Part shown: positions 5,182-23,348 of the stretch, piece by piece
How the letters are laid out: each line of letters begins with the position of its first letter
Position numbering within the stretch: the first letter of the stretch is position 1
Source: an uncultured bacterium
GTDB taxonomy: Bacteria > Dictyoglomota > Dictyoglomia > Dictyoglomales > Dictyoglomaceae
Direction of reading: 5' to 3'
NCBI GenBank assembly: GCA_938034905.1
Contig: CALHLF010000032.1
Span: forward strand, 1 to 41,928
DNA length: 41,928 nt
The notes under the pieces: model-generated
The model's input: only the letters and a program-made list of their open reading frames with translations
Database searches by the model: none
Told to the model about the DNA's origin: nothing
Made by a program: the position numbers and the translations under genes

Positions 5182-6039
5182 ATGAATGAAAATAAAAAAT
5201 ACCTAAAGGAATCCCTTCCCCATGGAGAACCTGATTTTCCCTTTTTCGTTCATGAGAATATATTTATATACAAAAATGGTGTATTTAATCCTCATTGGCA
5301 TAACGAATTTGAGATTTTATATTTAGAAAGGGGAAAGGCAAAATTTTATATTGACGGGAAAAAATTTATATTGGGAGAGAATCAATTTCTTTTTGTAAAC
5401 TGTGGTTCCATACACTCAGGGGAAGAAATAGAAAAATCCATGGCTTATGCTATAGTATTTGATTTAAGGCTCCTTTTTTCTGAGGAACCAGACTTTTGTA
5501 AGCATAAATATTTTATCCCACTTTTAGATGGAAGATATTCAGTTCCAAACTTTATTAAAGATGAGATCCTTGGAAGGGATATTTATGAAATCATAAAATT
5601 ATTTAAAATAAAACCCTATGGATATGAACTTCTTATTAAAGGATTACTTTATAGAATATTTTGGGAGATTTTTGATAAATATATTGAAAAATCTAAAAAT
5701 AAGGAACTAAGTTTAAAACTTGAAAGGATAAAGGATGTTTTGGTTTATATAGATTCAAATTATCAAAAAACTATAACCTTAGATGAACTTAGTAAGAAGG
5801 GTAATATAAGCAAGTTTTATCTATGTAGAATATTTAGAGATGTTTTACATATAAGTCCTATAGAATATATTAACAAGATTCGTGTTGAAAAGGCTACAGA
5901 ATTTTTGAGAAATACTAATATGAGTATATCTGATATTGCCTTTGAATGTGGTTTTAATAATATTAGTTATTTTATAAAGATTTTTAAAAAGTTTATGAGA
6001 ACTACCCCATTAAAGTATAGAAAAGGGCTAACTTTATAA
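5182..6039 (+). CDS. AraC-family transcriptional regulator with cupin sensor domain
   Basis: A 285-residue sugar-responsive regulator. The N-terminal cupin contains the ligand-pocket motif H-W-H-N-E-F-E-I (about residues 34-41), and the C-terminal 100 residues hold two helix-turn-helix units ending in the family signature around I-A-F-E-C-G-F-N-N and P-L-K-Y-R. The frame is open upstream to 5026, but that part is antisense to the patatin gene, so ATG 5182 is chosen. No ribosome site precedes it, which leaves the start uncertain by a few codons. It stands alone in front of the ten-gene carbohydrate operon and is its likely activator. Confidence 0.9.
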   Translation: MNENKKYLKESLPHGEPDFPFFVHENIFIYKNGVFNPHWHNEFEILYLERGKAKFYIDGKKFILGENQFLFVNCGSIHSGEEIEKSMAYAIVFDLRLLFSEEPDFCKHKYFIPLLDGRYSVPNFIKDEILGRDIYEIIKLFKIKPYGYELLIKGLLYRIFWEIFDKYIEKSKNKELSLKLERIKDVLVYIDSNYQKTITLDELSKKGNISKFYLCRIFRDVLHISPIEYINKIRVEKATEFLRNTNMSISDIAFECGFNNISYFIKIFKKFMRTTPLKYRKGLTL

Positions 6040-6249
6040 TAGGGAAACTCATCTAATTAAATTTTATTATAATTTTAACCGAAGAATATTTTCTAAAATC
6101 TAAAATCAAATTAATTTTATCTTTATTTTAATTTTTAAAACATATTTTTACTTATAACAAGATAGTTTTATTTTTTGTCAATTTTATAATAGAAGGAAAT
6201 TTCACTAATAATTAGAATATATTAAAGAAATTTTAAAGGAGGGATTTAA
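6040..6249 (+). promoter_or_regulatory. Control region of the ten-gene carbohydrate operon
   Basis: This 210-base A+T-rich gap contains TATAAT at 6185-6190 without a recognisable -35, which is the pattern expected of an activator-dependent promoter. Upstream is a tandem direct repeat TCTAAAA-TCTAAAA (6092-6105), a possible AraC-type half-site pair. Near the expected transcript start is the imperfect palindrome CTAA-TAA-TTAG (6205-6215). The 10-mer TTTATAATAG occurs at 6034-6043 and again over the -10. A ribosome site AAAGGAGGG precedes ATG 6250. Binding of the upstream AraC protein here is an inference. Confidence 0.5.
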
Positions 6250-7578
6250 ATGAAAAAATATTTAATATTTACTCTTTCTTTATTGATGTTCTTTTTTCTT
6301 ACTGCTATAATTCCAGGCTTTACTCAGAGAGTGTATTCAGTAAAAATTGGAGATTATGTCCTTAATATTGATACCCAAAAGTATAGAGGAAAAACTATAT
6401 ATATGTGGCAATTCTGGCCAGAAGAAGAGCAAAGTAGTATTCCTGGTATAAGATCAGGAAAACAAGTGAGAGAAGAGTTTGAGAAGATTACAGGAGCAAA
6501 GGTCCAAATAGTTTATACAACCTGGGAAAACTATAGACCAAAACTTAGTGCGGCAATTCTTTCTGGAAGTGGTGCAGATGTAGTTTATATAGGTGCAGGA
6601 GAAAAGCCTACATGGATGATGAAAAAGATGCTCATACCTTTAAATAAATATATCAATTTTAAAGATCAAAACTTATGGAAGGCAGTAGGATTTAGGGAAA
6701 GCACTTTAAAATTTTTCACTTGGCGGGGACAAGTTTATGCGGTAACAAATATTTATAATGATAATGTTTTTCCATATGTTCTTTATTATAACAAAGAAAA
6801 ATTTGAAATGAATGGACTTCCTGATCCTTTGGAACTTTATAAGCAGGGAAAATGGACATGGGATGCCTTTTTCTCTATTGGTTCTAAATTAACTCAAGAT
6901 ACCAATGGTGATGGCAAGATAGATCAATGGGCTTATGCTACTTGGGCGGTAGTTCAGCCTTTTCTTTATACTAATGATGTGGAGATTGTAAGATATATAG
7001 CAGGAAAGCCTGTTTTTGCCATGGACAGTCCCAAGGCATACAGGGCTTTTCAAGCTATTTATGATATGGATTCAAAATATAAAATGAGACCTGCAGATTG
7101 GTGGAATGATCCTCAGGGAAGATTTCAAAAGGGAATTACATGTATGGATTATTGGGGACCTTGGGAACTTACAGGTATGAGACAGGCTCTTGGGAAGAAA
7201 TTAGGAATAGTTCCCTTTCCTAAAGGTCCAGATGCTAAAAAGAAGAGTGCTGATATGGCTGATGATGGAGCATGGGCTATAGCTTCCTCCTCAAAGGATC
7301 CTGAACTTTCTGCTCTTTGGCTTCTTTACATGTTAATGCCTACTGATAAAGAAAAAGAAGCTATAGTAAAGAATCAAATTGAGAAGGTAGGAGGAAAGGA
7401 AAATTATGATTTACTATTGGATGCTGCTACAAGAGCTCAAATAGATCCTATTTCAGGAATTCCTGGATTTTGGGATCTTTTAAATCAAATAGACTATGCT
7501 AATCCTGCAAAATCTATAAAAGCTCTAAAGCCTAAATTTCAATCAGCAATTGATGCAATCTTAGAGGGACTTAAGTAG
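6250..7578 (+). CDS. Sugar ABC transporter solute-binding protein (family 1)
   Basis: A 442-residue periplasmic binding protein of the carbohydrate (MalE-like) class that delivers an oligosaccharide to a MalF/MalG permease pair. A signal peptide covers about residues 1-25 and has no lipobox cysteine. Family features are the N-terminal beta strand with W-Q-F-W-P, a V-V-Y-I-G-A-G strand, the Y-Y-N-K-E-K-F-E hinge segment, and D-T-N-G-D-G-K-I-D near residue 217, a calcium-loop-like stretch common in this subfamily. It is the first gene of the operon and is separated from the second binding-protein gene by a strong hairpin that may raise its expression. Ligand unknown; a beta-glucan oligosaccharide is inferred from the neighbours. 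Confidence 0.9.
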   Translation: MKKYLIFTLSLLMFFFLTAIIPGFTQRVYSVKIGDYVLNIDTQKYRGKTIYMWQFWPEEEQSSIPGIRSGKQVREEFEKITGAKVQIVYTTWENYRPKLSAAILSGSGADVVYIGAGEKPTWMMKKMLIPLNKYINFKDQNLWKAVGFRESTLKFFTWRGQVYAVTNIYNDNVFPYVLYYNKEKFEMNGLPDPLELYKQGKWTWDAFFSIGSKLTQDTNGDGKIDQWAYATWAVVQPFLYTNDVEIVRYIAGKPVFAMDSPKAYRAFQAIYDMDSKYKMRPADWWNDPQGRFQKGITCMDYWGPWELTGMRQALGKKLGIVPFPKGPDAKKKSADMADDGAWAIASSSKDPELSALWLLYMLMPTDKEKEAIVKNQIEKVGGKENYDLLLDAATRAQIDPISGIPGFWDLLNQIDYANPAKSIKALKPKFQSAIDAILEGLK

Positions 7579-7592
7579 AAATTTAGATTTTA

Positions 7593-7616
7593 TGGTCCTC
7601 CCAGTTGGGAGGACCA
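7593..7616 (+). repeat. Intercistronic hairpin after the first binding-protein gene
   Basis: Ten bases at 7593-7602 pair perfectly with 7607-7616 around the loop AGTT. It is followed by A-rich sequence, not a T run, so it is not a standard terminator on the plus strand. Such hairpins after a binding-protein gene commonly protect the upstream mRNA from 3' exonuclease and set high binding protein against low permease levels. The upstream ATG (7592) of the next reading frame lies at its base, another reason to prefer the start at 7649. Confidence 0.75.
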
Positions 7617-7648
7617 AATACAAAAAAAGTTTTAATTATGTAGGAAAG

Positions 7649-10492
7649 ATGGTAAATAGAATAATAAAAATTATAGGAATTTTTCTAATAGTTCTTTTAA
7701 ATCTTTACTCCTTTAGTTTTTCCCAAACTGATTTTTTTGACTTTATAAGCAAAAAAAATAATTATGAGTCCTATCTATCAAAATTTAAAGAGATAAAAAG
7801 GCCAAAGGATGTTATATTTATTCCTGCTGTTAATTATAAAACCTTTAAGAATTGTAGAGTAGAAAAAAGATTTGATCTTACCTATGATCACCATCCCGTT
7901 TTATATATGGATGATAGAGGATATGTGGAATGGGAATTTTTTGTTAAAGAGGAAGGATTCTATAATATAGCCTTAAAATATTACCCCATTAAAGGTAAGA
8001 ACTCAAATATCGAAAGGGAACTTATTATTGATGGAAAAAGACCCTTTAATGAAGCAAGGGTTATAAGATTTGAGAGAACATGGAAGAATGCAGGCCCTCC
8101 TTTGAAGGATAATCGAGGGAATGAGTTAAGACCAACTCAGATAGAGAGTCCAAGATGGGAGGAGAAATTAATAGAAGATTCAGAAGGATTATACAATGAG
8201 CCTTTCTTATTTTATTTTAAAAAAGGAAAACATACTATTCGTTTAAATGCCATTAAAGAACCTATTGTAATTGATTATATAAAAATATTTAACAAACTAA
8301 AGGAAAGAAGCTACGAGGTTTTGAAGAGGGAATATATAGAGAAAAATTATCCATATCCCAAAGGTATTGTTATAAAAATTCAAGGGGAAAAGGCAGATTT
8401 TAAATCAGAACCTACCCTTTATCCCCTCTCTGACAATTCAAATCCTTTAAACGAACCCTATAATTTCAGAAGAAAAATTTTAAATATAATTGGAGGATAT
8501 AATTGGAGAAATGCAGGACAGTGGATTGAATGGAAGTTTATAATTCCTGAGGATGGACTTTATAAAATTGGAATAAAATTTAGACAAAATGCAAATCCAG
8601 GGGTTCCTACAGAAAGGACTCTTTATATTGATGGAGAGATACCTTTTAATGAGGCTCGAAGTATCAAATTTATATACGATACTAATTGGCAATTTATGTA
8701 TCTTGGTAATGATAAAGAGCCATACTTTTTCTATTTAAGAAAGGGGGAGCATACTCTTAGATTAAAAGTCTCCTATGGAAATATTGCAGAAATTATAAGA
8801 AATATTTGGCAATGTGCCATTGATCTTTCCCAACTTTATACCAAAATTGTGATGATTACAGGTCCAAATCCTGATCCATTAAGAGATTATCTTTTAGATC
8901 AGCATATTCCAGATCTTATACCTACTTTAGAAGAAAATGCGAAAATTCTAAGAAAGAATGCGGAAAATATAGTAAAAATAAGTGGAAAGAAAGGAAGTGA
9001 ATCTGCCCTTTTAGAAAAAGTTGCTTTACAATTGGAGGGAATGGCAAGGGAGCCTGAAACTATTGCTCAAAGATTACAAAGATATAGGGATAATCTTTCT
9101 GCTTTGTCCTCCTTAGTCCTTACCATAAGGGAGCAACCCTTAGATATTGATTATATTGTTATTTCTTCTTTTGATCAAGGTAATTTTAGAGTTCTTCCCA
9201 ACTTTATTGAAAAATTTATAGATGGGATAAAAAAATTCTTTATTTCCTTTATAGAGAATTATAACATTATTGGTTCTTTCTATGATAAAGAAAAATCCAT
9301 AAATGTATGGATTCAGATGGGAAGAGATCAGGCAGAAACCCTGAAAATTCTTATCGATACTGATTTTACTCCTAAAACAGGGATAGGAGTAAATTTGAAT
9401 ATAATCCCTAATGAAGCGGTCTTACTTTTTGCAGTAGCCTCAAAAGAGAGTCCTCCTGATATTGCTTTAAATGTTTCTCGAACCCTTGCTATAGATTATG
9501 GCATTAGAGGTGCTTTAGTGGATCTTTCTGAGCTTCCGGGATTTGATGAGGTAAAGAAAAGATTCGCAGAATCAGCATTGATTCCTTATCAATTTAGGGG
9601 AAGGATATATGGACTTCCTATGACTCAAGATTTTCCCATAATGTTTTATAGAAAAGATATATTGGAAAGGCTTAAGATAAAAATTCCTGAGACGTGGGAG
9701 GAACTTTATAAGGTTATAGCAGAGTTACAGGGACATAACTTACAATTCGGAGCAGGACCTGGAAATGCTCCAAGTTTTGATATATTTAATATGCTTCTTC
9801 TTCAAAGGGGAGGAAGATATTATGATGAAGATGGCAAAAGATGTTTGCTTAATGATAATGAAGGAGTAGATGCCTTTAAGGAATGGACGAATCTATATAT
9901 ATTATACGGAATTCCTCTTTATTACGATTTCTTTAACAGATTTAGAACAGGAGAGATGCCCCTAGGTATAGTTAACTATACTTTATATAATGCTTTTAAG
10001 GTTGCAGCTCCAGAAATTAGTGGACTTTGGGGTATTGCACCTTTACCAGGAAGAAAAAGAAATAATATTATTGATAGAACTATGTCGGGAAATAGTACTG
10101 CAGTTTTAATCTTCAAAGATACGAAAAAAATAAATGAGTCTTGGGAATTTGTAAAATGGTGGCTTTCCACAGAGATTCAAGCAAGTTTTGGAAGAGAGTT
10201 GGAAGCTTTATTGGGAGCAGGTGCGAGATATAATACTTCTAATATAGAGGCTTTTAGTTATCTTCCCTGGCCTTCTTCTGATTATAAAGTGCTTTCTGAA
10301 CAATGGAAATATCTTAAAGAAATCCCCATAGTTCCAGGAAGCTATTATATTTCAAGGCATTTAGATAATGCTTTTAGAGAAGTAGTGATGTTGGGAGAAT
10401 TACAGAGGGAAGCCCTTGAAAAATATACTAAGGAGATAAATAAAGAGATTAGTAGAAAAAGAGAGGAATTTGGACTTGATATTTTAAGGTGA
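7649..10492 (+). CDS. Giant fused solute-binding protein with two N-terminal lectin-like modules
   Basis: A 947-residue secreted protein. After a signal peptide (about 1-26, ending S-F-S-Q) come two related beta-sandwich modules, at about 52-214 and 250-380. Both contain E-R-x-L-x-I-D-G, P-F-N-E-A-R and an F-Y-x-x-K-G-x-H-T-x-R-L stretch, so they arose by duplication and look like carbohydrate-binding galactose-binding-like folds. A helical linker (about 410-540) leads to a family 1 solute-binding domain (about 550-947) with F-P-I-M-F-Y-R-K-D. A usual binding protein has about 420 residues, so this one is twice normal size. It may hold polymeric or surface-bound glycan near the transporter. 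ATG 7649 is chosen, although its ribosome site is short-spaced. The permease genes follow four bases downstream. Confidence 0.85.
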   Translation: MVNRIIKIIGIFLIVLLNLYSFSFSQTDFFDFISKKNNYESYLSKFKEIKRPKDVIFIPAVNYKTFKNCRVEKRFDLTYDHHPVLYMDDRGYVEWEFFVKEEGFYNIALKYYPIKGKNSNIERELIIDGKRPFNEARVIRFERTWKNAGPPLKDNRGNELRPTQIESPRWEEKLIEDSEGLYNEPFLFYFKKGKHTIRLNAIKEPIVIDYIKIFNKLKERSYEVLKREYIEKNYPYPKGIVIKIQGEKADFKSEPTLYPLSDNSNPLNEPYNFRRKILNIIGGYNWRNAGQWIEWKFIIPEDGLYKIGIKFRQNANPGVPTERTLYIDGEIPFNEARSIKFIYDTNWQFMYLGNDKEPYFFYLRKGEHTLRLKVSYGNIAEIIRNIWQCAIDLSQLYTKIVMITGPNPDPLRDYLLDQHIPDLIPTLEENAKILRKNAENIVKISGKKGSESALLEKVALQLEGMAREPETIAQRLQRYRDNLSALSSLVLTIREQPLDIDYIVISSFDQGNFRVLPNFIEKFIDGIKKFFISFIENYNIIGSFYDKEKSINVWIQMGRDQAETLKILIDTDFTPKTGIGVNLNIIPNEAVLLFAVASKESPPDIALNVSRTLAIDYGIRGALVDLSELPGFDEVKKRFAESALIPYQFRGRIYGLPMTQDFPIMFYRKDILERLKIKIPETWEELYKVIAELQGHNLQFGAGPGNAPSFDIFNMLLLQRGGRYYDEDGKRCLLNDNEGVDAFKEWTNLYILYGIPLYYDFFNRFRTGEMPLGIVNYTLYNAFKVAAPEISGLWGIAPLPGRKRNNIIDRTMSGNSTAVLIFKDTKKINESWEFVKWWLSTEIQASFGRELEALLGAGARYNTSNIEAFSYLPWPSSDYKVLSEQWKYLKEIPIVPGSYYISRHLDNAFREVVMLGELQREALEKYTKEINKEISRKREEFGLDILR

Positions 10493-10496
10493 GAAA

Positions 10497-11399
10497 ATGA
10501 AGGATAAAAAATTAAGGAATGTCTGGAAAGAAATTAAGAAAAATAAGGAATCTTATTTATTGATTCTTCCTTACTTTACTTTATTTCTAATCTTTATAGT
10601 GATTCCTGTATTATTTGGAGCTATATTAAGCTTTACCAATTACAATATAATTCAAACTCCTAAGTTTATAGGCTGGTCCAATTATAAAAGACTTTTTCTC
10701 GAAGATGATATTTTTTTAATAGCAATTCAAAATACCTTTAAATTTGCCTTGATCACAGGACCTATTAGTTATTTTGCTTGTCTCCTCTTTGCATGGTTGA
10801 TAAATGAATTATCTCCTAAAGTTCGAGCTATTACAACTCTTCTATATTATGCTCCTGCTCTTTCCTCTGCAATTTTCTTCATCTGGACCTATATCTTTTC
10901 TGGAGATGTTTATGGTTTTCTAAATGGAATTTTAATAAATTTAGGGATAATAAAGGAGCCAATTTATTGGCTACAGGATCCCAATATTAATCTTTATGTA
11001 TTAATGATCATTCAGCTCTGGATGAGTTTAGGGACAAGCTTTTTAGCCTTTATAGCTGGGTTTCAGACTATAGATAGGTCATTATACGAAGCAGGAGCTA
11101 TAGATGGAATTAGAAATAGATGGCAGGAACTTTGGTATATAACATTACCCTCTATGAAACCTCAGCTTATATTTGGTGCTATTATGCAAGTTACCACCTC
11201 TTTTGCAGTTGCTGATATTTCTGCGAATCTTATTGGTTTTCCCAGTCCTCTATATTCTGCTCATACTATTGTTCTCCATATGTGGGATTATGGAAGTATA
11301 AGATATGAAATGGGATATGCCTCTGCTATTGCAGTTATTTTATTCTTTATTACAGTTAGTATAAATCAATGGGTTAGAAGAATCTTAAGATCTGACTAA
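10497..11399 (+). CDS. Sugar ABC transporter permease, MalF-like (pair 1)
   Basis: A 300-residue inner-membrane permease with six predicted helices. The cytoplasmic EAA loop that docks the ATPase reads E-A-G-A-I-D-G-I-R-N-R-W-Q-E-L-W near residue 196. It starts four bases after the giant binding protein with ribosome site AAGGTGAG, and is followed 14 bases later by its MalG-like partner. Its likely substrate is whatever the upstream binding proteins capture. No ATPase gene is found in this operon, so a shared ATPase must serve it. Confidence 0.92.
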   Translation: MKDKKLRNVWKEIKKNKESYLLILPYFTLFLIFIVIPVLFGAILSFTNYNIIQTPKFIGWSNYKRLFLEDDIFLIAIQNTFKFALITGPISYFACLLFAWLINELSPKVRAITTLLYYAPALSSAIFFIWTYIFSGDVYGFLNGILINLGIIKEPIYWLQDPNINLYVLMIIQLWMSLGTSFLAFIAGFQTIDRSLYEAGAIDGIRNRWQELWYITLPSMKPQLIFGAIMQVTTSFAVADISANLIGFPSPLYSAHTIVLHMWDYGSIRYEMGYASAIAVILFFITVSINQWVRRILRSD

Positions 11400-11413
11400 A
11401 TGGAGGATTTAAT

Positions 11414-12268
11414 ATGAAAGAAAGAAAAGTTAATAGATCTTTTTGGGGAAATTTGGTAATCTCAGTAGTGTTAACAGTTGTTGCTGTATTTATGGCTCTT
11501 CCATTAGTATATTCCATAATGAATGCCTTTAAGCCCTTAGATGAACTTTTTCTTTTTCCTCCAAGATTGTTTGTTAGAAGACCTACTTTAAAAAATTTTT
11601 CTGATCTTTTTTATCTTATGGGCACCTCCTTTGTCCCCTTTTCTAGATATTTATTCAATAGTATTTTTATAAGTTTTTTTGGAACCCTGGGTCATGTTCT
11701 TATTGCATCTATGGCTGCATATCCCCTCGCAAAACATAAATTTCCAGGAAGTAAGTTTTTATTTAATTTAGTTATATTTTCTCTTATGTTTTCTGGATAT
11801 GTTACTAATATTCCAAGATTTATAATAATGGCTAAGCTTCGTCTTCTTGATTCTTATCTTTCCTTAATTCTTCCATATATAGGAGCAACATTGGGTTTAT
11901 TTCTTATGAAACAATTCATGGAACAAATTCCAGATTCTTATATAGAATCTGCAAGAATTGATGGAGCTAACGAATTTAAAATTTGGTGGTATGTAATTAT
12001 GCCCAATGTGAAACCTGCTTGGCTTACTCTAATTCTCTTTTCCTTTAGAGAGATTTGGAATGACACTTATACTCCTTCCCTTTATATTCACAATGAAGCA
12101 TTGAAGCCTTTTTCTTTAGGTTTAACTTATATTCAGCAGGGGGGTTTTGTAAGAGCTGGTGCTGGTGCAGCTGCAGCAGTATTGATGTTAATTCCATCCA
12201 TTATTATCTTTATAATTACTCAAAGTAATGTGGTGGAGACAATGAAATCTGCAGGTATAAAGGGTTAA
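11414..12268 (+). CDS. Sugar ABC transporter permease, MalG-like (pair 1)
   Basis: A 284-residue partner of the preceding permease, with six predicted helices and the EAA loop E-S-A-R-I-D-G-A-N-E-F-K-I-W-W near residue 176. The N-terminal M-x-F-K-P-L-D-E-L-F segment is typical of MalG-type proteins that follow a signal-like first helix. Ribosome site GGAGG lies nine bases before ATG 11414. Confidence 0.92.
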   Translation: MKERKVNRSFWGNLVISVVLTVVAVFMALPLVYSIMNAFKPLDELFLFPPRLFVRRPTLKNFSDLFYLMGTSFVPFSRYLFNSIFISFFGTLGHVLIASMAAYPLAKHKFPGSKFLFNLVIFSLMFSGYVTNIPRFIIMAKLRLLDSYLSLILPYIGATLGLFLMKQFMEQIPDSYIESARIDGANEFKIWWYVIMPNVKPAWLTLILFSFREIWNDTYTPSLYIHNEALKPFSLGLTYIQQGGFVRAGAGAAAAVLMLIPSIIIFIITQSNVVETMKSAGIKG

Positions 12269-12281
12269 AGGGGCATATATT

Positions 12282-14336
12282 ATGAAAAAAAGTTTAGTAT
12301 TTATTATTCTTATTTTATTAGTTATAGAAATTTCTTTTGGAAGTGTACCATATTATACATACATTTATAATGAAAGGGGAAGGCCTGTCCCTTCTCTTCC
12401 AGGATTTGAGCCTAAAAAAATAATTACTGGTGAAAGTGTAGGACTTACCAAGTTTTCTTCTCCTCAAGATCTTTTTATAGATAAAGAAGGCAATATTTAT
12501 ATTGCTGATACAGGAAATAACAGAATAGTAGTTGTTGATTCTGATTTTAAAGTTAAAGGAATTATTGAAGATTTTAATAATAATAGAAAAAAGGATAAAT
12601 TTAACTCTCCCACAGGGATATTTAAGACTGAAGATGGAAAAATCTATATTGCTGATTCAGAAAATGGAAGAATTGTTGTGTTAAAGGAAGATGGAAGTTT
12701 GTATAGAATAATTGGAAAACCTGTAGGAGATGTTATAAAACCAGATTTTGTTTACAAACCTAAAAAATTAGCAGTAGATAAATTAGGTCGTATATATGTA
12801 GTTGCTGAAAATGTAGTGGAAGGACTTATCCAGTTTAATGTTGAAGGAAAATTTGAGAGATTCTTTGGAAGTAACAGGGTAGAAGTGAATCCCATAGATC
12901 TTTTTTGGAGGAGAGTACTTACAAGGAGACAGCGTCAACAATTAGCTCTATTTATTCCCATAGAATATAGAAATATAACTACAGACAAGGATGGATTTAT
13001 ATATGGTTGTGTAAGGGCTTATTATAACCAAGTTAAGAGATTAAATGCCCTGGGAGATAATATTATAAAACAAGAAGGAAGAACAGGATCTGTTTATGGA
13101 GATCTTTATTTTGGTTTTACCGTAAGGGGGGAAATTGTAGACATTGCCCTTGATGACTCTGACAATTTATATGTGTTAGATGGAAGGGTTGGAAGAATAT
13201 TTGTCTATAATACCTTGGGAGATTTTCTCTTTGTTATAGGGGATTTAGGGAATCAAAAGGGGCAATTTTCCTATCCTTGTGCCCTTTCTGTATATAAGAA
13301 CAAAATTTATGTTCTTGATGAAAATAAAGGCACAATAACAATATTTTCTCCAACTTATTTTGGGGAATTGGTTTTAAAGGCAAATTCTTACTATGTGCAG
13401 GGATATTATGGTAAGGCTGCAGAAATATGGAAAGAAGTGGTAAAACTTGATGTCAATTATGACTTGGCTTATATTGGGCTTGGAAAAAATTATCTTCATA
13501 ATGAGGAGTATAGATCTGCAATGGAGGCATTTAAATTAGGTTTTTATCCTCAAGGATACTCAAAGGCTTTAAAGGGATATAGAATTGAATATATGAGGAA
13601 AAATTTCTCTAAATTTATGAATATTTTAACATTATTCCTGCTCTTTATGTATCTTCTAATAAAATTTATGGGAGAAAGAATAAGGGAAAAGCTCAGAACT
13701 TTTCTTTCAAGAAGGGATGTTTTGAAAACAGCCTTATTTGCATTTTATATAATATTTCATCCCTTTGATGGATTTTATGAACTAAAAAGAAACAAAAATG
13801 CCTTCAAATCCTCCTTTGTCCTTTTAGTTTTTATAATATTCTCCTTTTTAATTAAAAGAATCTTTACAAGTTTCCATTTTAATCCTGTAAGGATTGAGGA
13901 GTTAAACATACTTCTTGAGATTAATAAGATAATATTACCCCTTTTGGGATGGGTAATAATAAATTGGGCTATAACCACAATAATGGATGGAAAGGCAACT
14001 ATGAGAAATATTTGGTCCTTCACTCTATATTCCCTATTTCCCTTAGCATTATTTAATATTCCTCAAACTTTATTAAGTCATGTATTTACTTTAGAAGAAA
14101 TAGGCTTCTATGAAATTATAAGCACTTTAGCTTCTCTTTGGAGTTTGGCTCTTCTTATATCAGGAATAATGGTTGTGCAGGATTATACTTTAAATAAGGC
14201 AATAGGCACATCGCTTCTTACTTTAGCGGGAATTCTTTTTATTATGTTTATAGGAATAGTGTTTTTTGGTACCTTTCAACAGTTTTTAAGATTTTTATAC
14301 ACTTGTTATCTTGAAATAAAGTATATGATCTCATAG
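12282..14336 (+). CDS. NHL beta-propeller / TPR / Yip1-like membrane protein
   Basis: A 684-residue multidomain protein. A signal peptide or first helix covers 1-20. An NHL-type propeller follows at about 45-360, with repeated D-L-F-I-D-K-E-G-N-I-Y-I-A-D-T-G-N-N-R-I and similar blades. A TPR-like pair of helices lies at about 370-430. From about 445 to the end there are roughly six membrane segments resembling the Yip1 family. So an extracytoplasmic sensor-like or scaffold head is tied to a polytopic membrane domain. Comparable proteins are, to my knowledge, found beside sugar ABC permeases and DUF5696 genes in Paenibacillus-type Firmicutes, with no established role. It sits between the first permease pair and the DUF5696-like gene; a part in transporter assembly or sensing is a guess. 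Confidence 0.8.
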   Translation: MKKSLVFIILILLVIEISFGSVPYYTYIYNERGRPVPSLPGFEPKKIITGESVGLTKFSSPQDLFIDKEGNIYIADTGNNRIVVVDSDFKVKGIIEDFNNNRKKDKFNSPTGIFKTEDGKIYIADSENGRIVVLKEDGSLYRIIGKPVGDVIKPDFVYKPKKLAVDKLGRIYVVAENVVEGLIQFNVEGKFERFFGSNRVEVNPIDLFWRRVLTRRQRQQLALFIPIEYRNITTDKDGFIYGCVRAYYNQVKRLNALGDNIIKQEGRTGSVYGDLYFGFTVRGEIVDIALDDSDNLYVLDGRVGRIFVYNTLGDFLFVIGDLGNQKGQFSYPCALSVYKNKIYVLDENKGTITIFSPTYFGELVLKANSYYVQGYYGKAAEIWKEVVKLDVNYDLAYIGLGKNYLHNEEYRSAMEAFKLGFYPQGYSKALKGYRIEYMRKNFSKFMNILTLFLLFMYLLIKFMGERIREKLRTFLSRRDVLKTALFAFYIIFHPFDGFYELKRNKNAFKSSFVLLVFIIFSFLIKRIFTSFHFNPVRIEELNILLEINKIILPLLGWVIINWAITTIMDGKATMRNIWSFTLYSLFPLALFNIPQTLLSHVFTLEEIGFYEIISTLASLWSLALLISGIMVVQDYTLNKAIGTSLLTLAGILFIMFIGIVFFGTFQQFLRFLYTCYLEIKYMIS

Positions 14337-14349
14337 GAGGATTTTTTAA

Positions 14350-16548
14350 ATGCTAAGAAAGATTCTTGTGATAGTTTTCTTGATGATGATTATGCCTATA
14401 TATGGACAGGGAGAAATCTATAAAAAAATAGCAGAAAATCATAATTTTTCTCTTTTATTTAACGAAAAGGATGTAAGTCTAATTATAGAAGATAAAAAAT
14501 CAAAGAGATTATATCCCCAATTTCCTGAGGATTGGGAAAATGATTTTTCTATGGGGCTTACAAAATTTAGTATCCCTTCCCATTTAGTTTTGGAATTAGT
14601 AGATGAAGAAGGAAGAATAACTACTTATAACACCTATGCCTTGGGAGTAATGAGAAATAATTTTAAGATTTCTAAAATCGATAGAGGATTAAGGATTGAC
14701 TATGATTTCCCAACTCAAGAGATAAAAATATCCATAGAATTTATATTAAATTCCTTTGGGCTTTCGGTGCGTATTCCTATTAAATCCATAAAAGAACCTA
14801 AGGATTTGAAACTTAATAGGATATGGCTTCTTCCATATTTTCTTTCTGCAAGTAAAAAAGATGATGGGTATTTATTAGTACCTGATGGTTCTGGAGCCTT
14901 GATAAGATTTAAAGAAAGTTATGGAACAGAGAGAGGTTTCGAATTGCCCCTATATGGATATGATAGAGGACTTCCCCTTTATGATATGCCTCCTAAAAAT
15001 GAAGGACTAAGACTACCTGTTTTTGGGATTAAAAGGAATGATTGGGCAGTTTTAGGACTTATTAAAAGTGGAGATTATTCTGCAAGTATTGCTTCTTATA
15101 TTCCCGGAAATAGCACTGGATATTACAGAATATACCCTATATTTACCTATAGAAGTATTCATAAATTCCTCCTCTATGAGAGAGAAATTTCCACAGGCCA
15201 AGCAGGGGAAGTGGTAGATGTATTAGTAAATAAGATATCCCCATATCATCTTGATAAAGATATAGTCGTAGATTACTACTTTCTCATTGGAAAGGATGCT
15301 AACTATTCAGCAATGGCTAGATTATTTAGAGAATATATTATTAAGAATAGAATTTTGGAAAAAAGGATAAAAGACAGCTCCTTTTATCTTAATCTTTCTT
15401 TTATTGGAGGAATAAAGACAAAAACTACCTTCTTAGGAATACCTATGGTAAAATTTTCTCCCCTTACTCCCTTTGAAAAGGCTATAGAGATTTTAGAAAA
15501 CCTTAAAAAACAGGGTATCAGAAATATAAATCTCATCTATAAAGGATACCAACCTGGAGGTTATTTGGGAAAAATTACCAATGGAATTAGGTTCGAGAAA
15601 AAATTAGGGGGAGAGAAAGATTTTCGTAGACTTTTGGAATACTGTGAAAAAAATAATATAAACTTAAGTCTTTCTGCAGAGATAATAGAGGTTCATGAGG
15701 AGGGAAATGGTTTTTCCTCTGCTAAAGATGCTAATAGGTATTTAAATAACGGATTGGTCCTTTTGTATAAATGGGATCCTGTAACGAAAAAGAAGAATAG
15801 AGACTATAATCCATGGTTCAATATTCTTCCTATTAGAATCCCAACTTATCTCAGAAATATTGTAAGTGATCTTGATAAGTATAAAATAAGGAATATTTTA
15901 ATAGAAAATATAGGAGATTATATATATTCTCAGAATAAAAAGCCTAATTTGTTATCTCGAGAAGAGGTGGCTAATATCCTTCATGAAGTATTTGGAGAGG
16001 TGATAAATAAAGTAAAACTTCAGTTTACCCATGGAAATTTTTATGCTATACCCTATTCATCATTAATTTTAGAAATACCTTTAGATTGTAGTAATTATGC
16101 CATTGAAAGTGAACCAATTCCCTTTTACCCAATGGTAATTCATGGATATATTCCCTATAGTGGAAAACCTGGAAATTTAAGAGAAAATCAAAAAAAGGAA
16201 TTTCTTAGGATGGTGGAGTATGGAGCGCTTCCTTATTATCTTCTAATCTATGAGGACTCCTCTTATTTCAGGAAAAGTTTTTATAATGAAATGTTAAGTT
16301 CTAATTATAAAGACTGGATAAAAAGGATAGTAGAAGAATATAAAAAGATTGAAGATTTATATAAATCCATTGTAAATGTTCCTATGAGATTCCACGAGAA
16401 ATTATCAGAAGGTTTATACAGAACTGTTTATGAAAATGGAATAGAAGTAATAGTAAATTATAATTCAAAACCCATAAATTATAAAGGAAAGGTCATTGAA
16501 AAAGAGGATTTTATTTATCTTAAAGATAAAAAAAGGAGTGAAGAATAA
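14350..16548 (+). CDS. DUF5696-like secreted protein, putative glycoside hydrolase
   Basis: A 732-residue exported protein with a signal peptide ending I-Y-G-Q (about residue 20). The N-terminal third is beta-rich and includes L-L-V-P-D-G-S-G-A-L-I. The middle part alternates strands and helices in a pattern compatible with a TIM barrel (N-L-I-Y-K-G-Y, then L-S-L-S-A-E-I-I-E, then I-L-I-E-N-I-G-D-Y). A late beta-sandwich includes V-I-V-N-Y-N-S-K-P, similar in style to the tail domain of GH36/GH101-like hydrolases. I recognise it as DUF5696-like but cannot place catalytic residues with certainty. Its place between two permease pairs suggests that it acts on the imported glycan. Confidence 0.65.
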   Translation: MLRKILVIVFLMMIMPIYGQGEIYKKIAENHNFSLLFNEKDVSLIIEDKKSKRLYPQFPEDWENDFSMGLTKFSIPSHLVLELVDEEGRITTYNTYALGVMRNNFKISKIDRGLRIDYDFPTQEIKISIEFILNSFGLSVRIPIKSIKEPKDLKLNRIWLLPYFLSASKKDDGYLLVPDGSGALIRFKESYGTERGFELPLYGYDRGLPLYDMPPKNEGLRLPVFGIKRNDWAVLGLIKSGDYSASIASYIPGNSTGYYRIYPIFTYRSIHKFLLYEREISTGQAGEVVDVLVNKISPYHLDKDIVVDYYFLIGKDANYSAMARLFREYIIKNRILEKRIKDSSFYLNLSFIGGIKTKTTFLGIPMVKFSPLTPFEKAIEILENLKKQGIRNINLIYKGYQPGGYLGKITNGIRFEKKLGGEKDFRRLLEYCEKNNINLSLSAEIIEVHEEGNGFSSAKDANRYLNNGLVLLYKWDPVTKKKNRDYNPWFNILPIRIPTYLRNIVSDLDKYKIRNILIENIGDYIYSQNKKPNLLSREEVANILHEVFGEVINKVKLQFTHGNFYAIPYSSLILEIPLDCSNYAIESEPIPFYPMVIHGYIPYSGKPGNLRENQKKEFLRMVEYGALPYYLLIYEDSSYFRKSFYNEMLSSNYKDWIKRIVEEYKKIEDLYKSIVNVPMRFHEKLSEGLYRTVYENGIEVIVNYNSKPINYKGKVIEKEDFIYLKDKKRSEE

Positions 16549-17463
16549 ATGAGAAAAAAGAAATTAAGAAGTCTTTCTCAAAGACAAGCTTTTGTAGGAA
16601 GACTCTTTGTTTATCCTTGGCTTATTGGGTTTTTGATATTCTTTGCCTACCCCTTTATCCGATCCATTATTTTTGCCTTTAGCGAATTAGACCTTACTCC
16701 CTTTGGTCTTAAGCTAACCTTTATAGGATTTAAAAATTTTATAAAGGCCTTACAGGAAGATCCTACCTTTATTCAATACTTAACTCTTGAAGTAACTAAT
16801 ACCATTGTTAATATCCCTCTAATCTTAATGTTTTCTTTGTTTATTGCTATCCTTTTAAACCAGAGGTTTAAAGGAAGAGCCTTTATAAGGGCAATATTTT
16901 TCCTCCCAGTAGTGGTCATGTCTGGAGCTTTACTCTATGTATTAGAAAGTAATACTATGGAACAATTCTATATAGGTGCTCAAACGGGAATGGCAATGTC
17001 AAATTCACCCTTTGTTAGAGGAATAGACTTTAGGATGTTTCTTATTCAAATAACGGGAAATATTCCCTTTGTTAGACCTTTAATTGATGCCATTAATAGA
17101 ATTTATGAGATAATTTGGAAATCAGGAGTCCAAATTCTAATTTTTTTAGCAGGGCTTCAATCTATTCCATCTTCTTTATATGAGGTTGCCAGTGTAGAGG
17201 GAGCTACTCCTTGGGAATCCTTCTGGAAAGTTACCTTTCCTTTACTTTCTCCCATTATATTGGTTAATGTAGTTTATACTGTTATAGATTCCTTTACTGA
17301 TTATAGTAATGATGTATTAAGATATATTCTTGAAGTTGCCTTTAGAAGATTACAACATGGATATAGTTCTGCAATAGCTTGGCTTTATTTCCTAATTTTG
17401 GGGACAATTCTTTTATTATTAGTCATTTTTATTTCAAAAAGGGTATTTTATATAAGTGAATAG
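16549..17463 (+). CDS. Sugar ABC transporter permease, MalF-like (pair 2)
   Basis: A 304-residue permease of a second MalF/MalG pair. The EAA loop is Y-E-V-A-S-V-E-G-A-T-P-W-E-S-F-W near residue 212. Between the third and fourth helices it has a longer periplasmic insertion (about residues 130-185) than ordinary MalF-like permeases of this size, perhaps a docking site for its binding protein. It starts directly after the DUF5696-like stop codon, with GGAGTGA inside that gene as ribosome site. Confidence 0.9.
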   Translation: MRKKKLRSLSQRQAFVGRLFVYPWLIGFLIFFAYPFIRSIIFAFSELDLTPFGLKLTFIGFKNFIKALQEDPTFIQYLTLEVTNTIVNIPLILMFSLFIAILLNQRFKGRAFIRAIFFLPVVVMSGALLYVLESNTMEQFYIGAQTGMAMSNSPFVRGIDFRMFLIQITGNIPFVRPLIDAINRIYEIIWKSGVQILIFLAGLQSIPSSLYEVASVEGATPWESFWKVTFPLLSPIILVNVVYTVIDSFTDYSNDVLRYILEVAFRRLQHGYSSAIAWLYFLILGTILLLLVIFISKRVFYISE

Positions 17464-17473
17464 GAGGAAGAGA

Positions 17474-18433
17474 ATGAAATTTTTAGAATATGAAAAGGAA
17501 GAATTGATTTTTATAATAAAACATAAATTTGTAAAATTTATAGGAATAACCTTAAGAATTCTTCTCTTCTTGGGACTTATCTATATTCTTATGAGACCTG
17601 TACTCTTTATGCTGAGCACTGCATTAAAGAGTAAAGAGGATCTTATAGATCCTACAGTAGTTTGGATTCCTAAGCATATAACTCTTGATAATTTTCGCCT
17701 TGCTTTTAAATCCTTATCTTTTTTAAACTCTTTTAAAAATAGTATTCTTACCGCAGTATTACCTGCAATTTTTCATGTAATAAGTTGTTCCATGATTGGA
17801 TATGGTTTAGCAAGGTTTAAGTTTAAAGAACGAGAAATTATCTTTGTATTGATAATTTTTACCCTTATGGTTCCTCCTCAAGTGATCCTTATTCCTCTTT
17901 ATGCTTTTTATCAAAGTTTTGATATTTTTGGTTTAGTTAAACTTTTTAGGGGAGAACCCCTCAATCTATTAAACACCTATTATCCCATTATATTGCCCAC
18001 AATTCTTGGAGGAGGATTAAGAAGTGGTTTATTTATATATATATTTAGGCAATTTTTTAGAGGAATATCAAAGGAACTTGAAGAAGCAGCATATATAGAT
18101 GGCTGTTCTCCCTTCCAAACCTATTTTAGAATTTTTATTCCTAATTCTATTCCTGCAATTACTACTGTTTTCCTTTTTTCTTTGGTTTGGCACTGGAATG
18201 ATGCCTTTGGTCCATCGGTTTATATAGGTGATTTTAACAAATATACCTTGTCCATGAATCTTGCGAATCTTAAGGCAATTATTACTGGAGGAACTCAAAT
18301 TTGGGATCCTCTTCTTATTCTTCCCCCTCAGTATGCTGGAGCTATCTTAGTTATTCTTCCCATGCTGATTCTTTACCTTTTTACTCAAAGACTTTTTGTG
18401 GAGAGCGTGGAAAGAACAGGTATTGTTGGATAA
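17474..18433 (+). CDS. Sugar ABC transporter permease, MalG-like (pair 2)
   Basis: A 319-residue partner permease with the EAA loop E-E-A-A-Y-I-D-G-C-S-P-F-Q-T-Y-F. Its first 30 residues are charged and precede the first helix, an N-terminal extension relative to common MalG proteins. The frame opens at 17456, but that ATG lies before the AGGAGG (17462-17467), so ATG 17474 is preferred. That AGGAGG overlaps the stop codon of the partner gene, which indicates coupling. Confidence 0.9.
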   Translation: MKFLEYEKEELIFIIKHKFVKFIGITLRILLFLGLIYILMRPVLFMLSTALKSKEDLIDPTVVWIPKHITLDNFRLAFKSLSFLNSFKNSILTAVLPAIFHVISCSMIGYGLARFKFKEREIIFVLIIFTLMVPPQVILIPLYAFYQSFDIFGLVKLFRGEPLNLLNTYYPIILPTILGGGLRSGLFIYIFRQFFRGISKELEEAAYIDGCSPFQTYFRIFIPNSIPAITTVFLFSLVWHWNDAFGPSVYIGDFNKYTLSMNLANLKAIITGGTQIWDPLLILPPQYAGAILVILPMLILYLFTQRLFVESVERTGIVG

Positions 18434-18459
18434 AAATTTTAAAAAGGAGGTATTTTCCT

Positions 18460-19035
18460 ATGAAAAAATTAAGCGTTTTGATTCTCCTAACAATTCTTCT
18501 TGTAAGTATCCTTTGGGGTCAAGTCTCTTCAAAGACTCTATTAGTCTATGATGGAGAAAAGGAAAATACAAATCTTTCCTCTATTGGCTTCTGGGTTGCT
18601 CCCGAAGGTTGTAAGGCAGAGGAAATAAAAAATATTGCCCATTCTGGAGAAAAGAGTATTAAAGTATATTTTAAATGGAATAGCTGGTGGGCTGGTATGG
18701 GATTAAATTGGGCTAAATGGAGTAATAAAGATAGGATTTTCGATTTATCGGATTTCAATAAATTGGAATTTTGGGTTAAAGCAGAATCTGAAAATACTAT
18801 TACCTTTTTACTCACCTTAGCTCAAGCCCCAGAAGCTCCCGAAGAAAAGGAAAAATATTCCGATAAAGTAACAATTTCGGGTGGAATTCCTACTTCTTGG
18901 ACAAAAGTTTCTATTCCCCTTTCCCTATTTAAAGGGATAGATTTAAAGAAAATCTGGGGCATGTCCATTGAAGTTACAGGAGCTCCTCAAGGAGAACTAA
19001 TCTTTTATGTAGATGACATTGTCTTCCTGAAGTAG
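18460..19035 (+). CDS. Small secreted CBM11-like carbohydrate-binding protein
   Basis: A 191-residue exported protein that consists of a signal peptide (ending L-W-G-Q, about residue 20) and a single beta-sandwich. The pattern V-Y-D-G-E near the start, a central S-D-F-N-K-L-E-F-W-V-K strand and the C-terminal F-Y-V-D-D-I-V-F-L-K match the galactose-binding-like fold of CBM11 and CIA30-type domains; CBM11 members bind mixed-linkage and beta-1,4-glucans. It has no catalytic domain. The start is ATG 18460, ten bases after AAGGAGG; the longer open frame upstream is antisense-free overlap with the permease gene and lacks a signal peptide. It precedes the GH5 gene by ten bases and may present glucan to it or to the binding proteins. 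Confidence 0.75.
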   Translation: MKKLSVLILLTILLVSILWGQVSSKTLLVYDGEKENTNLSSIGFWVAPEGCKAEEIKNIAHSGEKSIKVYFKWNSWWAGMGLNWAKWSNKDRIFDLSDFNKLEFWVKAESENTITFLLTLAQAPEAPEEKEKYSDKVTISGGIPTSWTKVSIPLSLFKGIDLKKIWGMSIEVTGAPQGELIFYVDDIVFLK

Positions 19036-19045
19036 GAGGTTCTTG

Positions 19046-20665
19046 ATGAGGCTTTCAAGACTTCATCTAATTTTATTATTAATTTTGAGCTTTAGTATGA
19101 TGAATGCTCAGGATAAAAAATATAAATATGTTTTCAATTATATAGAACCCAATAAAGCAGTGGAAGAGATGAATCCGGGATGGAATCTTGGAAACTCTTT
19201 AGATTCCATCCCCGATGAAACTTCTTGGGGAAATCCAAAAACAGAGCCATATATATTTGAGGATATAAAGAAAGCTGGGTTTAAAGGAGTAAGAATTCCT
19301 GTAACCTGGATAGACCATATGACTCCCAATAATAAAGTGGAAAAAGAGTGGATGGATAGGGTAGAGGAAGTAGTGAGTTATGCTTTGGAAAAGGATCTAT
19401 ATGTAATTATAAATGTTCACCATGACTCCTGGAGATGGCTAAGTAAAGAGATGAAACAAGATAAAGAGAAAACGATAAATAAGCTTGAAACTCTTTGGAT
19501 ACAAATTGCAGAAAGATTTAAAGATTATTCTGAAAAGCTTATTTTTGAAATAATTAATGAGCCTCAATATGAAGGATTTCAAGAATGGGAAGCTGGAGCA
19601 ATTCAGAATGAAGTAAATGAAAGGATTTTAAAGATTATTAGAAATTCAGGAGGATTTAATGATAAAAGACTTGTGGTAATTCCTCCCCTTGACACAGATA
19701 TATACAAGGCAGAGAAATATCTAATACCTCCTAAGGATCCAAATATTATAATAGGAATCCACTATTATTCTCCATGGGATTTTGTAGCTAATTGGTGGGG
19801 AAGAAAGAGTTGGGGAACCCAAGGAGATATTACCCAAATGGAAAAGGACTTTAGAATAATATATGAAAAATTTAGGAATTATGCCATAATTTTGGGAGAA
19901 TATGGAGTATTTAATGGAAATAAACCTTCAGAATGGGTTTACTTTGATAATCTCATAAGGATTACAAAAAAGTACAATATTGCAACCTTTTATTGGGATA
20001 ATGGTTTTGACAACTATGATAGAAGGAAAAGGATATGGAGAGATGAGATGAAGATTAAAATAATAATGAATGCAGTAAAGGGGATTTCCAATTCCTTTCT
20101 AAATCCAGGGATACTTTTTATTAAAAAAGATGAAAATATAAAAGATGAAATAGTCCATCTAATACTTAATGGGAATCATCTGATAAATATTTCCTATAAA
20201 GGAAAACTTCTTGAGAAGAATAAAGATTATATATTAGAAGGAAATAGGGTAATAATTAAAGGAGATTTTCTTAGATCAATTTTAGGAGAAGTTGGGGAAA
20301 GTTCTTTCCTTAATTTCAATTTTGATAAAGGAGCAGATTATGATTTAGAGGTTATCCCTTATAAAAATCCAATAATATTAGATAAACCATTATTAATTCT
20401 AAAGGGTCTTTCTATCCCTATAAATTTTATTATCTCCTTTAATGGGACAAGGCTTTGTGCTATAAGATTGATAAGGGGAGATAATGGAAAGCCCATAAGG
20501 GATCCTTGGACGCCATACTTAAGGGGATGGGATGATTTTGAAGTAAAGGATAGTCAGGTTACAATAAAAAAGCATGTAGTAGAAAAGATTGATGGGGATA
20601 TTAAGATTATATTTGAATTCTTTCCAGAAAATATCTCCTTGGAAACTTATATAAAGGTAAAATAA
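19046..20665 (+). CDS. GH5 endo-beta-glucanase with X2 module
   Basis: A 539-residue secreted endoglucanase of glycoside hydrolase family 5. A signal peptide (1-21, ending M-N-A-Q) is followed by the catalytic barrel (about 35-345). Visible active-site residues are R83 in G-V-R-I-P-V-T-W, H125-H126, the acid/base E172 in N-E-P, H239-Y240, and the nucleophile E285 in G-E-Y-G. At about 350-440 is an X2-type immunoglobulin-like module with L-N-G-N-H-L and the N-K-D-Y-I-L-E-G-N signature. The last 100 residues are a further beta-rich domain I do not recognise. Start: ATG 19046, six bases after AGGAGG, not the TTG three bases earlier. Substrate could be cellulose, lichenan or mannan; the family alone does not decide. 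Confidence 0.92.
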   Translation: MRLSRLHLILLLILSFSMMNAQDKKYKYVFNYIEPNKAVEEMNPGWNLGNSLDSIPDETSWGNPKTEPYIFEDIKKAGFKGVRIPVTWIDHMTPNNKVEKEWMDRVEEVVSYALEKDLYVIINVHHDSWRWLSKEMKQDKEKTINKLETLWIQIAERFKDYSEKLIFEIINEPQYEGFQEWEAGAIQNEVNERILKIIRNSGGFNDKRLVVIPPLDTDIYKAEKYLIPPKDPNIIIGIHYYSPWDFVANWWGRKSWGTQGDITQMEKDFRIIYEKFRNYAIILGEYGVFNGNKPSEWVYFDNLIRITKKYNIATFYWDNGFDNYDRRKRIWRDEMKIKIIMNAVKGISNSFLNPGILFIKKDENIKDEIVHLILNGNHLINISYKGKLLEKNKDYILEGNRVIIKGDFLRSILGEVGESSFLNFNFDKGADYDLEVIPYKNPIILDKPLLILKGLSIPINFIISFNGTRLCAIRLIRGDNGKPIRDPWTPYLRGWDDFEVKDSQVTIKKHVVEKIDGDIKIIFEFFPENISLETYIKVK

Positions 20666-20692
20666 AAAGGCTGGGTAAATTCCCAGCCTTTT
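20665..20692. terminator. Bidirectional terminator between the two carbohydrate operons
   Basis: Eleven bases at 20665-20675 are perfectly complementary to 20682-20692 around a six-base loop. A tracts on one side and T tracts on the other allow it to work on both strands. It closes the plus-strand GH5 operon and the minus-strand Opp/Dpp-type operon, and overlaps both stop codons. Confidence 0.9.
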
Positions 20693-21509
20693 AAACTTTA
20701 ATCTTTTCCAGATCCTCCCATTTTTTATACAGTGTAGGAATACTTTCAATTAGTCTCTTTGTATAATCGTGTTTTGGATTTGAGAGAATTTCATCAGGTG
20801 TTCCTTCTTCAACTAATTCTCCCAAGTACATAATTAGGATTTTATCCGAAATATAATATGCCAATCCCATATCATGAGTAATAAAAAGGATAGAAGTGTT
20901 TTGAACTTTTCTTAATTTCTCAAAGAGTTTTATTACACCTCCACGGGTTGATGCATCAATCATGGATACAGGCTCATCTGCTACTATTAATTTAGGCATG
21001 AGTAACCAACATCTTGCTACCATTATTCTTTGTTTTTCTCCACCAGAGAGCTGATGAGGGTATTTTCCAAGAATAGATTTTGGATCCAATCCCACATTTC
21101 TTAACGCTTCTTCCATTAATTCCTTTGCTTCAGGGCTTGCAGGATCAAATCCAATTAATCTTATTGCTTGATGAAGAACTCTGTCTATAGGATAAAAGGG
21201 ATTATAGCTGGCAAAGGGATCTTGAAAAACTGCATGAACCTTTCTTCTTAATTCTCTTATAGTATCTATATTTGTAAAATATTCCTGAAGATTTTTACCT
21301 TCAAATAAAATTTCTCCTGATGTGGGTTTCAATAAACCTAATATGATTTTTGCAGTAGTAGTTTTTCCAGACCCACTTTCTCCAACTAAGGAAACTATCT
21401 CTCCTTCTTTTATACTAAAGGATACATTCTTTACCGCATGGATATATTTTTTTCTAAAAATTCCTATTTCATATATTTTATTTAAGTTTCTCACTTCTAA
21501 TAGTGCCAT
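20691..21509 (-). CDS. Opp/Dpp-type ABC transporter ATPase (OppF/DppF-like)
   Basis: A 272-residue ATPase subunit. Walker A is G-E-S-G-S-G-K-T-T-T, the signature is L-S-G-G-E-K-Q-R, and Walker B is L-I-V-A-D-E-P. The C-terminal oligopeptide-transporter extension is short and lacks the iron-sulfur cysteines seen in its partner. The frame is open to 21542, but ATG 21509, preceded by GAGGTGAG and four bases after the stop of the upstream gene, is the likely start. It is the last gene of the five-gene operon, and its stop codon lies in the terminator stem. Confidence 0.93.
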   Translation of the reverse strand: MALLEVRNLNKIYEIGIFRKKYIHAVKNVSFSIKEGEIVSLVGESGSGKTTTAKIILGLLKPTSGEILFEGKNLQEYFTNIDTIRELRRKVHAVFQDPFASYNPFYPIDRVLHQAIRLIGFDPASPEAKELMEEALRNVGLDPKSILGKYPHQLSGGEKQRIMVARCWLLMPKLIVADEPVSMIDASTRGGVIKLFEKLRKVQNTSILFITHDMGLAYYISDKILIMYLGELVEEGTPDEILSNPKHDYTKRLIESIPTLYKKWEDLEKIKV

Positions 21510-21513
21510 TTTC

Positions 21514-22500: not shown

Positions 22501-22505
22501 TTTTT

Positions 22506-23348
22506 TCACCTCTCTCTTAACCTTGGATTAAATATTTCATCCATTGTGGTGGTAACAATAAGGAGGGAGGAAGTTAAAGCTACAATTATTAATCCTGGAG
22601 GAATAAACCACCACCATAGACCTCTCCTTACCGCTTCCATTAGGACTGCCCATTGAAGTATTATTCCCAAGGAGACCCCCTTTGTGGGACCTAAGCCAAT
22701 TAAGCTTAATCCTGCCTCTCCCAATATTCCTCCATTTATAAAGAGGATAAATGCCATAAGGGCATAGGTAGCAATTCCAGGAATTAAATCTTCAAAAGCT
22801 AATTGTAGATCAGTATATCCAGCAAGTCTTGATAAATATACATATTCTCTGTTGATAAGAGAGAGGAGTTGAGCTCTTATAGCACGGGCAAACCAAGGCC
22901 ATCCAAGGACTCCTAAAAGAATAGCAACAACCTCTGCACTTCTTACTTTTAGATATGTTGCCACTAAAATTGCCAGAAGAATATTAGGAATAGTTAATAC
23001 TATATTTGTAAAGGACATAAGAATATCATCCACAACTCCGCCTTTTACAGCAGAAATAGAGCCAATAAGTAGTCCAATTACCATTGAGATTACTGCAGTA
23101 AGGAAGCCAATATAAAGGGAAGTTCTAATGCCGTTTAAAAGTTTTGCTAATAAATCTCCACCATAGGTATCTGTTCCTAAGGGGAATTCCTTAGATGGGG
23201 GAGATTCCATCTTGCCAGCAAAGGAAGTAGGATCTTTTGGGTAAAGAATAGGGCCCAAAATTCCCATTAATACAATAAGAATAAAAACAGAAAAAGCAAC
23301 AATGAACTTTTTGTTTCTGAATAAGGGTTTAAAAATAGTTCCAAACAT
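22506..23348 (-). CDS. Opp/Dpp-type ABC transporter permease (DppC-like)
   Basis: A 280-residue inner-membrane permease with about six helices. It has the N-terminal P-L-G-T-D-T-Y-G-G-D-L motif that identifies OppC/DppC proteins, and the cytoplasmic loop G-Y-T-D-L-Q-L-A-F-E that contacts the ATPases. Ribosome site AAGGAGAG is inside the end of the upstream permease gene, whose stop lies two bases before this start. Confidence 0.93.
   Translation of the reverse strand: MFGTIFKPLFRNKKFIVAFSVFILIVLMGILGPILYPKDPTSFAGKMESPPSKEFPLGTDTYGGDLLAKLLNGIRTSLYIGFLTAVISMVIGLLIGSISAVKGGVVDDILMSFTNIVLTIPNILLAILVATYLKVRSAEVVAILLGVLGWPWFARAIRAQLLSLINREYVYLSRLAGYTDLQLAFEDLIPGIATYALMAFILFINGGILGEAGLSLIGLGPTKGVSLGIILQWAVLMEAVRRGLWWWFIPPGLIIVALTSSLLIVTTTMDEIFNPRLRER

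Follow-up and report, generated by a model that had tools for sequence, protein, structure and literature searches.

The window (the whole analysed stretch of 41,928 nucleotides) corresponds to contig 32 of a genome of 1.84 Mb, the host of which is a member of the Dictyoglomaceae. Positions 5182–20665 hold a single plus-strand operon that comprises eleven genes with its AraC-type regulator, rather than the ten counted in the initial annotation; a combined Pfam and ORF check recovered all the genes named there, on that strand and tightly spaced, and their coordinates stood except for two starts. The operon opens with an AraC-family regulator with a cupin-type sensor domain (5182–6039; HTH_18, 1e-22; AraC_binding, 3e-11), for which the ATG at 5182 was taken as start from the sequence. 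This is followed by a solute-binding protein with a signal peptide (SBP, 6250–7578; SBP_bac_8, 3e-20), a giant binding protein (GSBP, 7649–10492; Pfam SBP domain, 3e-25) and a first permease pair, MalF1 (10497–11399; BPD_transp_1, 2e-10) and MalG1 (11414–12268; BPD_transp_1, 2e-15). Next come an NHL beta-propeller/TPR-like/Yip1 membrane protein (12282–14336; NHL, 8e-21; Yip1, 2e-13) and an exported DUF5696 protein (14350–16548; Pfam, 3e-182), and then a second pair, MalF2 (16549–17463; BPD_transp_1, 2e-10) and MalG2 (17474–18433; BPD_transp_1, 7e-20). At the 3' end lie two genes that we regard as cargo, i.e., an exported protein weakly similar to CBM11 and CBM30 (18460–19035) and a secreted GH5 endoglucanase with an Ig-like module (CBM_X2) and a C-terminal module (19046–20665; Cellulase, 1e-52; CBM_X2, 2e-19), which starts at ATG 19046. 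The earlier labels "CBM11-like" and "TPR" are to be read with care, the matches (CBM30, 0.002; CBM11, 0.003; TPR, 1e-4) all lying below their cut-offs; the CBM11/CBM30-like protein nevertheless has orthologues in four relatives and is conserved in the Dictyoglomaceae. From GSBP to the operon end, intergenic gaps measure 1–35 bp. No Rfam elements were found, and scans for promoters and terminators gave nothing above chance.

Between SBP and GSBP lies a hairpin with a 10-bp stem on the plus strand (7593–7616; z −3.6). The GSBP reading frame is open from 7592, the start assumed initially, but since this stable hairpin occupies 7593–7616 the true start is probably 7649. Stems of at least 8 bp, with differing sequences, were present in most of the 52 SBP–GSBP gaps of relatives, a count made without a shuffled control. 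The hairpin probably protects the SBP message or reduces expression of the genes that follow, which would fit strong SBP and weaker permease expression.

In GSBP, the Pfam SBP domain is confined to residues 581–864 of 966. The AF2 model (pLDDT 91, pTM 0.85) consisted of an N-terminal transmembrane or signal helix, two beta-sandwiches (residues 56–214 and 241–375), a helical bundle and the C-terminal SBP domain, and in Foldseek it matched oligosaccharide-binding proteins; the sandwich motifs resemble CBM6/35, as judged by eye only. An N-terminal hydrophobic segment was present in 109 of 115 GSBPs, whereas a lipobox was seen in few GSBPs as opposed to most SBPs.

In order to follow this gene set across genomes, a DUF5696 profile built from an alignment from eight genomes was scanned against 84,980 bacterial and archaeal genomes, in which relatives were encoded at 256 places. 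The best 80 of these were kept with 10 kb flanks, and their genes were labelled by profiles; most displayed the order GSBP, MalF1, MalG1, NHL, Yip1, DUF5696, MalF2, MalG2, as did most of forty additional loci picked from other copies and length classes. Among the 110 distinct loci with enough flank, GSBP was found near DUF5696 in 106, NHL in 104 and Yip1 in 102, and a permease gene lay downstream in 106 and upstream in 101; at least some of the absent components are ORF-calling errors. The two unknown genes are therefore clearly not found mostly apart from sugar permeases, the outcome that had been named as refuting the initial proposal of a conserved functional unit, and that proposal is borne out by the fixed order around nearly all of these loci. 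The set spans Paenibacillus, Clostridia and relatives of Dictyoglomus in an order that is nearly always the same, and NHL and Yip1 are encoded by two adjacent genes in many relatives. No other fusion between modules or components was found besides NHL-Yip1; three apparent ones (L020, L062, L094) were discarded as likely ORF-calling errors in GC-rich DNA.

Co-occurrence was then monitored in 201 genomes of the Paenibacillales, the order of Paenibacillus baekrokdamisoli. Strong DUF5696 matches were present in 122 genomes, NHL-Yip1 in 122 and the GSBP N-terminal region in 124, where the two extra, weak matches were single sandwich domains in short proteins; it is the same 122 genomes that carry all three. 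The Paenibacillus-type neighbourhoods mentioned in the initial annotation are real. The corresponding Fisher value of 6e-58 overstates independence, because these genomes share ancestry. In the class of genome G061, 57 of 196 genomes scored above the cut-off. We conclude that the cassette is a conserved unit of functionally linked genes; such conservation of gene order indicates functional linkage, and one physical complex does not follow from it.

Up to ten complete-looking copies of the cassette occur per genome, and more in one fragmented metagenome-assembled genome (MAG). In G079 and G087 (loci L071, L025, L120, L139 and L140), about 20 DUF5696 matches, some of them fragments, were counted in a 3.0 Mb MAG and 8 in the other; at L140 (G087:C3:119331–121326), short adjacent genes each encode a single GSBP-like beta-sandwich, apparently repeated. 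Nearer to the window genome, the cassette was absent from G001 (near-complete, same genus) and from G005 (an incomplete relative), in contrast to G002, G003, G004 and G006. An empty-site comparison with the sister species G001 yielded no clean insertion site, the upstream flank being non-syntenic even in G002.

With regard to its internal organization, the cassette appears to fall into two modules that are inherited together, A (GSBP, MalF1, MalG1) and B (NHL-propeller/Yip1 protein, DUF5696, MalF2, MalG2), to which an ordinary SBP is added. In the permease tree, MalF1, MalG1, MalF2 and MalG2 formed one clade each (support 1.0, 0.999, 0.962 and 0.839, respectively) from which outside permeases were excluded; members labelled "other" within these clades were largely cassette genes missed by the positional rule. 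MalF1 was the most conserved component (median identity 48%) and SBP the least (17%), a pattern to be expected if specificity is set by SBP. EAA loops were present in MalG1, MalF2 and MalG2, and in a form one residue longer than the usual spacing in MalF1 (window 11085–11160), where the motif EAGxIDGxxxRWQELWYITLP is conserved across cassettes.

The locus could alternatively hold two ordinary CUT1 importers in one operon, GSBP working with MalF1/MalG1 and SBP with MalF2/MalG2, and NHL-Yip1 and DUF5696 being a docking or anchoring aid of the second only, with no joint complex. The presence of two SBPs and two permease pairs is in line with this, as is the finding that module B occurs without module A at three loci (L025, L120 and L139), so that both permease pairs are not always needed, and precedes it at two others (L064 and L082). 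Distances between components also correlated best among permeases inside modules (MalF1–MalG1, 0.96; MalF2–MalG2, 0.94). Cross-module correlations, however, still fell within the overall range of 0.83–0.96, which partly reflects shared species history, module A was never found without module B in the 201 Paenibacillales genomes, and the near-invariant joint order reaches distant lineages, including locus L161 of G308. Two independent importers are on balance unlikely. We favour, at a probability of roughly 0.6, a CUT1-type ABC importer in which two permease modules are assembled on a propeller-Yip1 scaffold and matched to a glycan by SBP and the attached enzymes.

No ATPase gene was found within 5182–20665; genes on the opposite strand at 20691–22509 encode oligopeptide-type ATPases that belong to another system. 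The initial description "without ATPase" holds for the locus but not for the system, as a MalK-type ATPase is encoded inside the cluster in 24 of the 110 relatives. In about 20 Paenibacillus and Cohnella loci it directly precedes GSBP, and the two genes often overlap by 4 bp. These in-cluster ATPases are about 50% identical to an orphan of the window genome, one of three MalK-type genes present there, which is located on contig C60 without adjoining permeases (L103, 8084–9196). Sharing of MsmX/MalK-type ATPases between importers is known in Bacillus (PMC5730181, PMC7658222), and both of its hallmarks, permeases without a cognate ATPase and an orphan MalK-type gene, are found here. The orphan is the candidate ATPase for this copy, which fits the earlier suggestion that an ATPase is borrowed from elsewhere. 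Among the features of CUT1 (type I) ABC importers, MalF/MalG-type permeases with EAA loops and a solute-binding protein are present at the locus, and a MalK-type ATPase with an OB domain is found as the orphan candidate and in the in-cluster relatives. Other ABC components of the MacB, HlyD and LolD types adjoin the cassette in several lineages: an ATPase, HlyD, FtsX/MacB and a further ATPase follow MalG2 at L088 (14035–19530), and two LolD-type ATPases precede GSBP in Ruminiclostridium MAGs (L042, L061 and L067). At L101, HlyD- and MacB-type proteins (12653–15066) lie within the set itself, together with NHL, DUF5696, a membrane protein and a permease pair, and without GSBP.

The DUF5696 protein was modelled with AF2 (pTM 0.76) as a beta super-sandwich, a (beta/alpha)8 barrel and a C-terminal sandwich. 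Its closest solved folds in Foldseek were GH129 glycosidases (5opq, 1e-32; 5wzn, 2e-25; TM-score to target 0.70–0.74), followed by GH101, GH36 and GH31, and a 41-sequence DUF5696 profile matched NagBb (4e-18) and ZgGH129 (2e-16). The overall fold and profile resemble those of GH129/GH101 glycosidases, whereas the cassette protein lacks their Asp nucleophile and Glu acid/base and is embedded in a transporter operon. In the HMMER alignment, NagBb D435 and E478, which we take from the published structure to be nucleophile and acid/base, correspond to E519 and T560 of the window protein. The nucleophile column was acidic in 23 of 118 DUF5696 sequences and the acid/base column in 44, with both acidic in only 5, including one stand-alone homologue; even a permissive count, accepting an acidic residue at most one position away from each of the two sites, gave 16 of 117. 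The catalytic motif pair was retained in 9/9 stand-alone homologues, namely eight short Clostridia proteins (L150–L157) and L102, all without NHL-Yip1 or GSBP, compared to 0/121 transporter-linked members.

Based on this contrast, DUF5696 is probably a pseudo-enzyme that acts as a transporter subunit, enzyme activity having most likely been lost in the transporter-linked branch. The idea that DUF5696 trims the polymer finds no support, given the absent GH129 catalytic residues, and trimming would fall to GH5. DUF5696 could still be active as an exo-acting glycosidase, using shifted catalytic residues to trim chain ends at the mouth of the transporter; its complete GH129-like three-domain fold and conserved D179, R537, H598 and E623 agree with such a role, and since E519 keeps the nucleophile column acidic in Dictyoglomaceae, weak or altered activity may persist in this family. 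With neither catalytic column conserved and the motif pair confined to the stand-alone proteins, we nonetheless hold an active enzyme to be improbable. The stand-alone homologues themselves (561–635 aa) display a YxD/SE motif pair like that of GH101/GH129 and are probably active glycosidases, an unassigned group filed under PF18952.

Regarding the cargo, GH5 gave a near full-length match to the Bacillus cellulose hydrolase 4yzp (5e-129). Judged by its map position, this gene is probably Dtur_1586, which is annotated as a secreted cellulase and lies outside the 16 enzymes assayed previously, in a study in which the ABC sugar transporters described were three-component only (PMC5167688). Because GH5 supports it, the likely substrate of this copy is a beta-1,4-linked glucan, which may be of the mixed-linkage type or a xyloglucan. 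The nearest solved structure to SBP, 6rjy (7e-31), binds arabino-oligosaccharides, which conflicts with GH5, and substrate prediction from SBP homology was not used. Cargo in other copies included GH2, 5, 10, 20, 26, 29, 30, 31, 32, 35, 38, 42, 43, 51, 78 and 95, so the core is generic; the original designation "glucan system" suits this copy and does not extend to the machine as a whole.

In the mechanism that we propose for the preferred importer, GH5 would cut beta-1,4-linked glucan outside the membrane, and its products would be held by SBP and by the CBM-like sandwiches of GSBP. The GH129-like DUF5696 would bind glycan or dock partners, and the propeller/Yip1 protein, as candidate scaffold, would bring the two permease pairs and the outer proteins together in a single assembly. 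The four permeases, with their EAA-type loops, would import the products when served by a MalK/MsmX-type ATPase, supplied here by the orphan gene and in many relatives by a cluster gene. NHL-Yip1 and DUF5696 might instead sense glycan binding and report it to regulators, in view of AraC and other regulators encoded nearby in the window and in relatives. This we regard as very improbable, given that regulator type and presence vary around a fixed core, that both genes are located between the permease pairs and that NHL-Yip1 is mostly predicted to be exported or membrane-embedded, without a signalling domain.

A bolder version of the importer, which we put forward tentatively and consider possible at best, would join nine proteins into one double-barrelled ABC machine, where a platform of dead glycosidase and propeller/Yip1 protein captures a glycan chain and feeds two coupled permease pairs. 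As a Gram-positive counterpart to SusCD, it would be used in many copies per genome, with a different matching glycan for each copy. Bacteroidetes SusC/SusD loci likewise combine a conserved uptake core and many copies per genome with swappable enzymes and regulators; the likeness is one of function between unrelated systems, the cassette being a probable ABC importer of the cytoplasmic membrane, and no TonB-dependent SusC or SusD domain was found among the eleven genes. CUT1 (MalEFGK2-type) importers with shared MsmX/MalK likewise comprise an SBP, permeases of the MalF/MalG type with EAA loops, and a MalK-type ATPase that is shared or in the cluster. They differ from the present unit, in which there are two distinct permease pairs, CBM-like domains are added to the GSBP, and NHL-Yip1 and DUF5696 are present as two further conserved subunits. 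Polysaccharide import by an ABC system with large binding proteins has a precedent in the Sphingomonas alginate importer AlgSM1M2 with AlgQ1/Q2, which has one permease pair and, unlike the cassette, neither a propeller/Yip1 protein nor a pseudo-glycosidase. In the open-licence PMC literature we found neither a description of the cluster nor a paper on DUF5696. If our reading is true, a major glycan-uptake machine of Paenibacillus and many Clostridia has so far gone unnamed, PF18952 is explained as a case of a glycosidase turned transporter subunit, and a transporter role can be proposed for bacterial NHL-Yip1 proteins. The cassette would also serve as a marker for Gram-positive glycan utilisation loci, with substrates predictable from the attached enzymes.

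Elsewhere in the window, a second CUT1 set (MalG, MalF and SBP; 38601–41549), also without an ATPase, adjoins a transketolase gene, and a 1032 aa protein of the GH106-like rhamnosidase type is encoded at 32373–35471.
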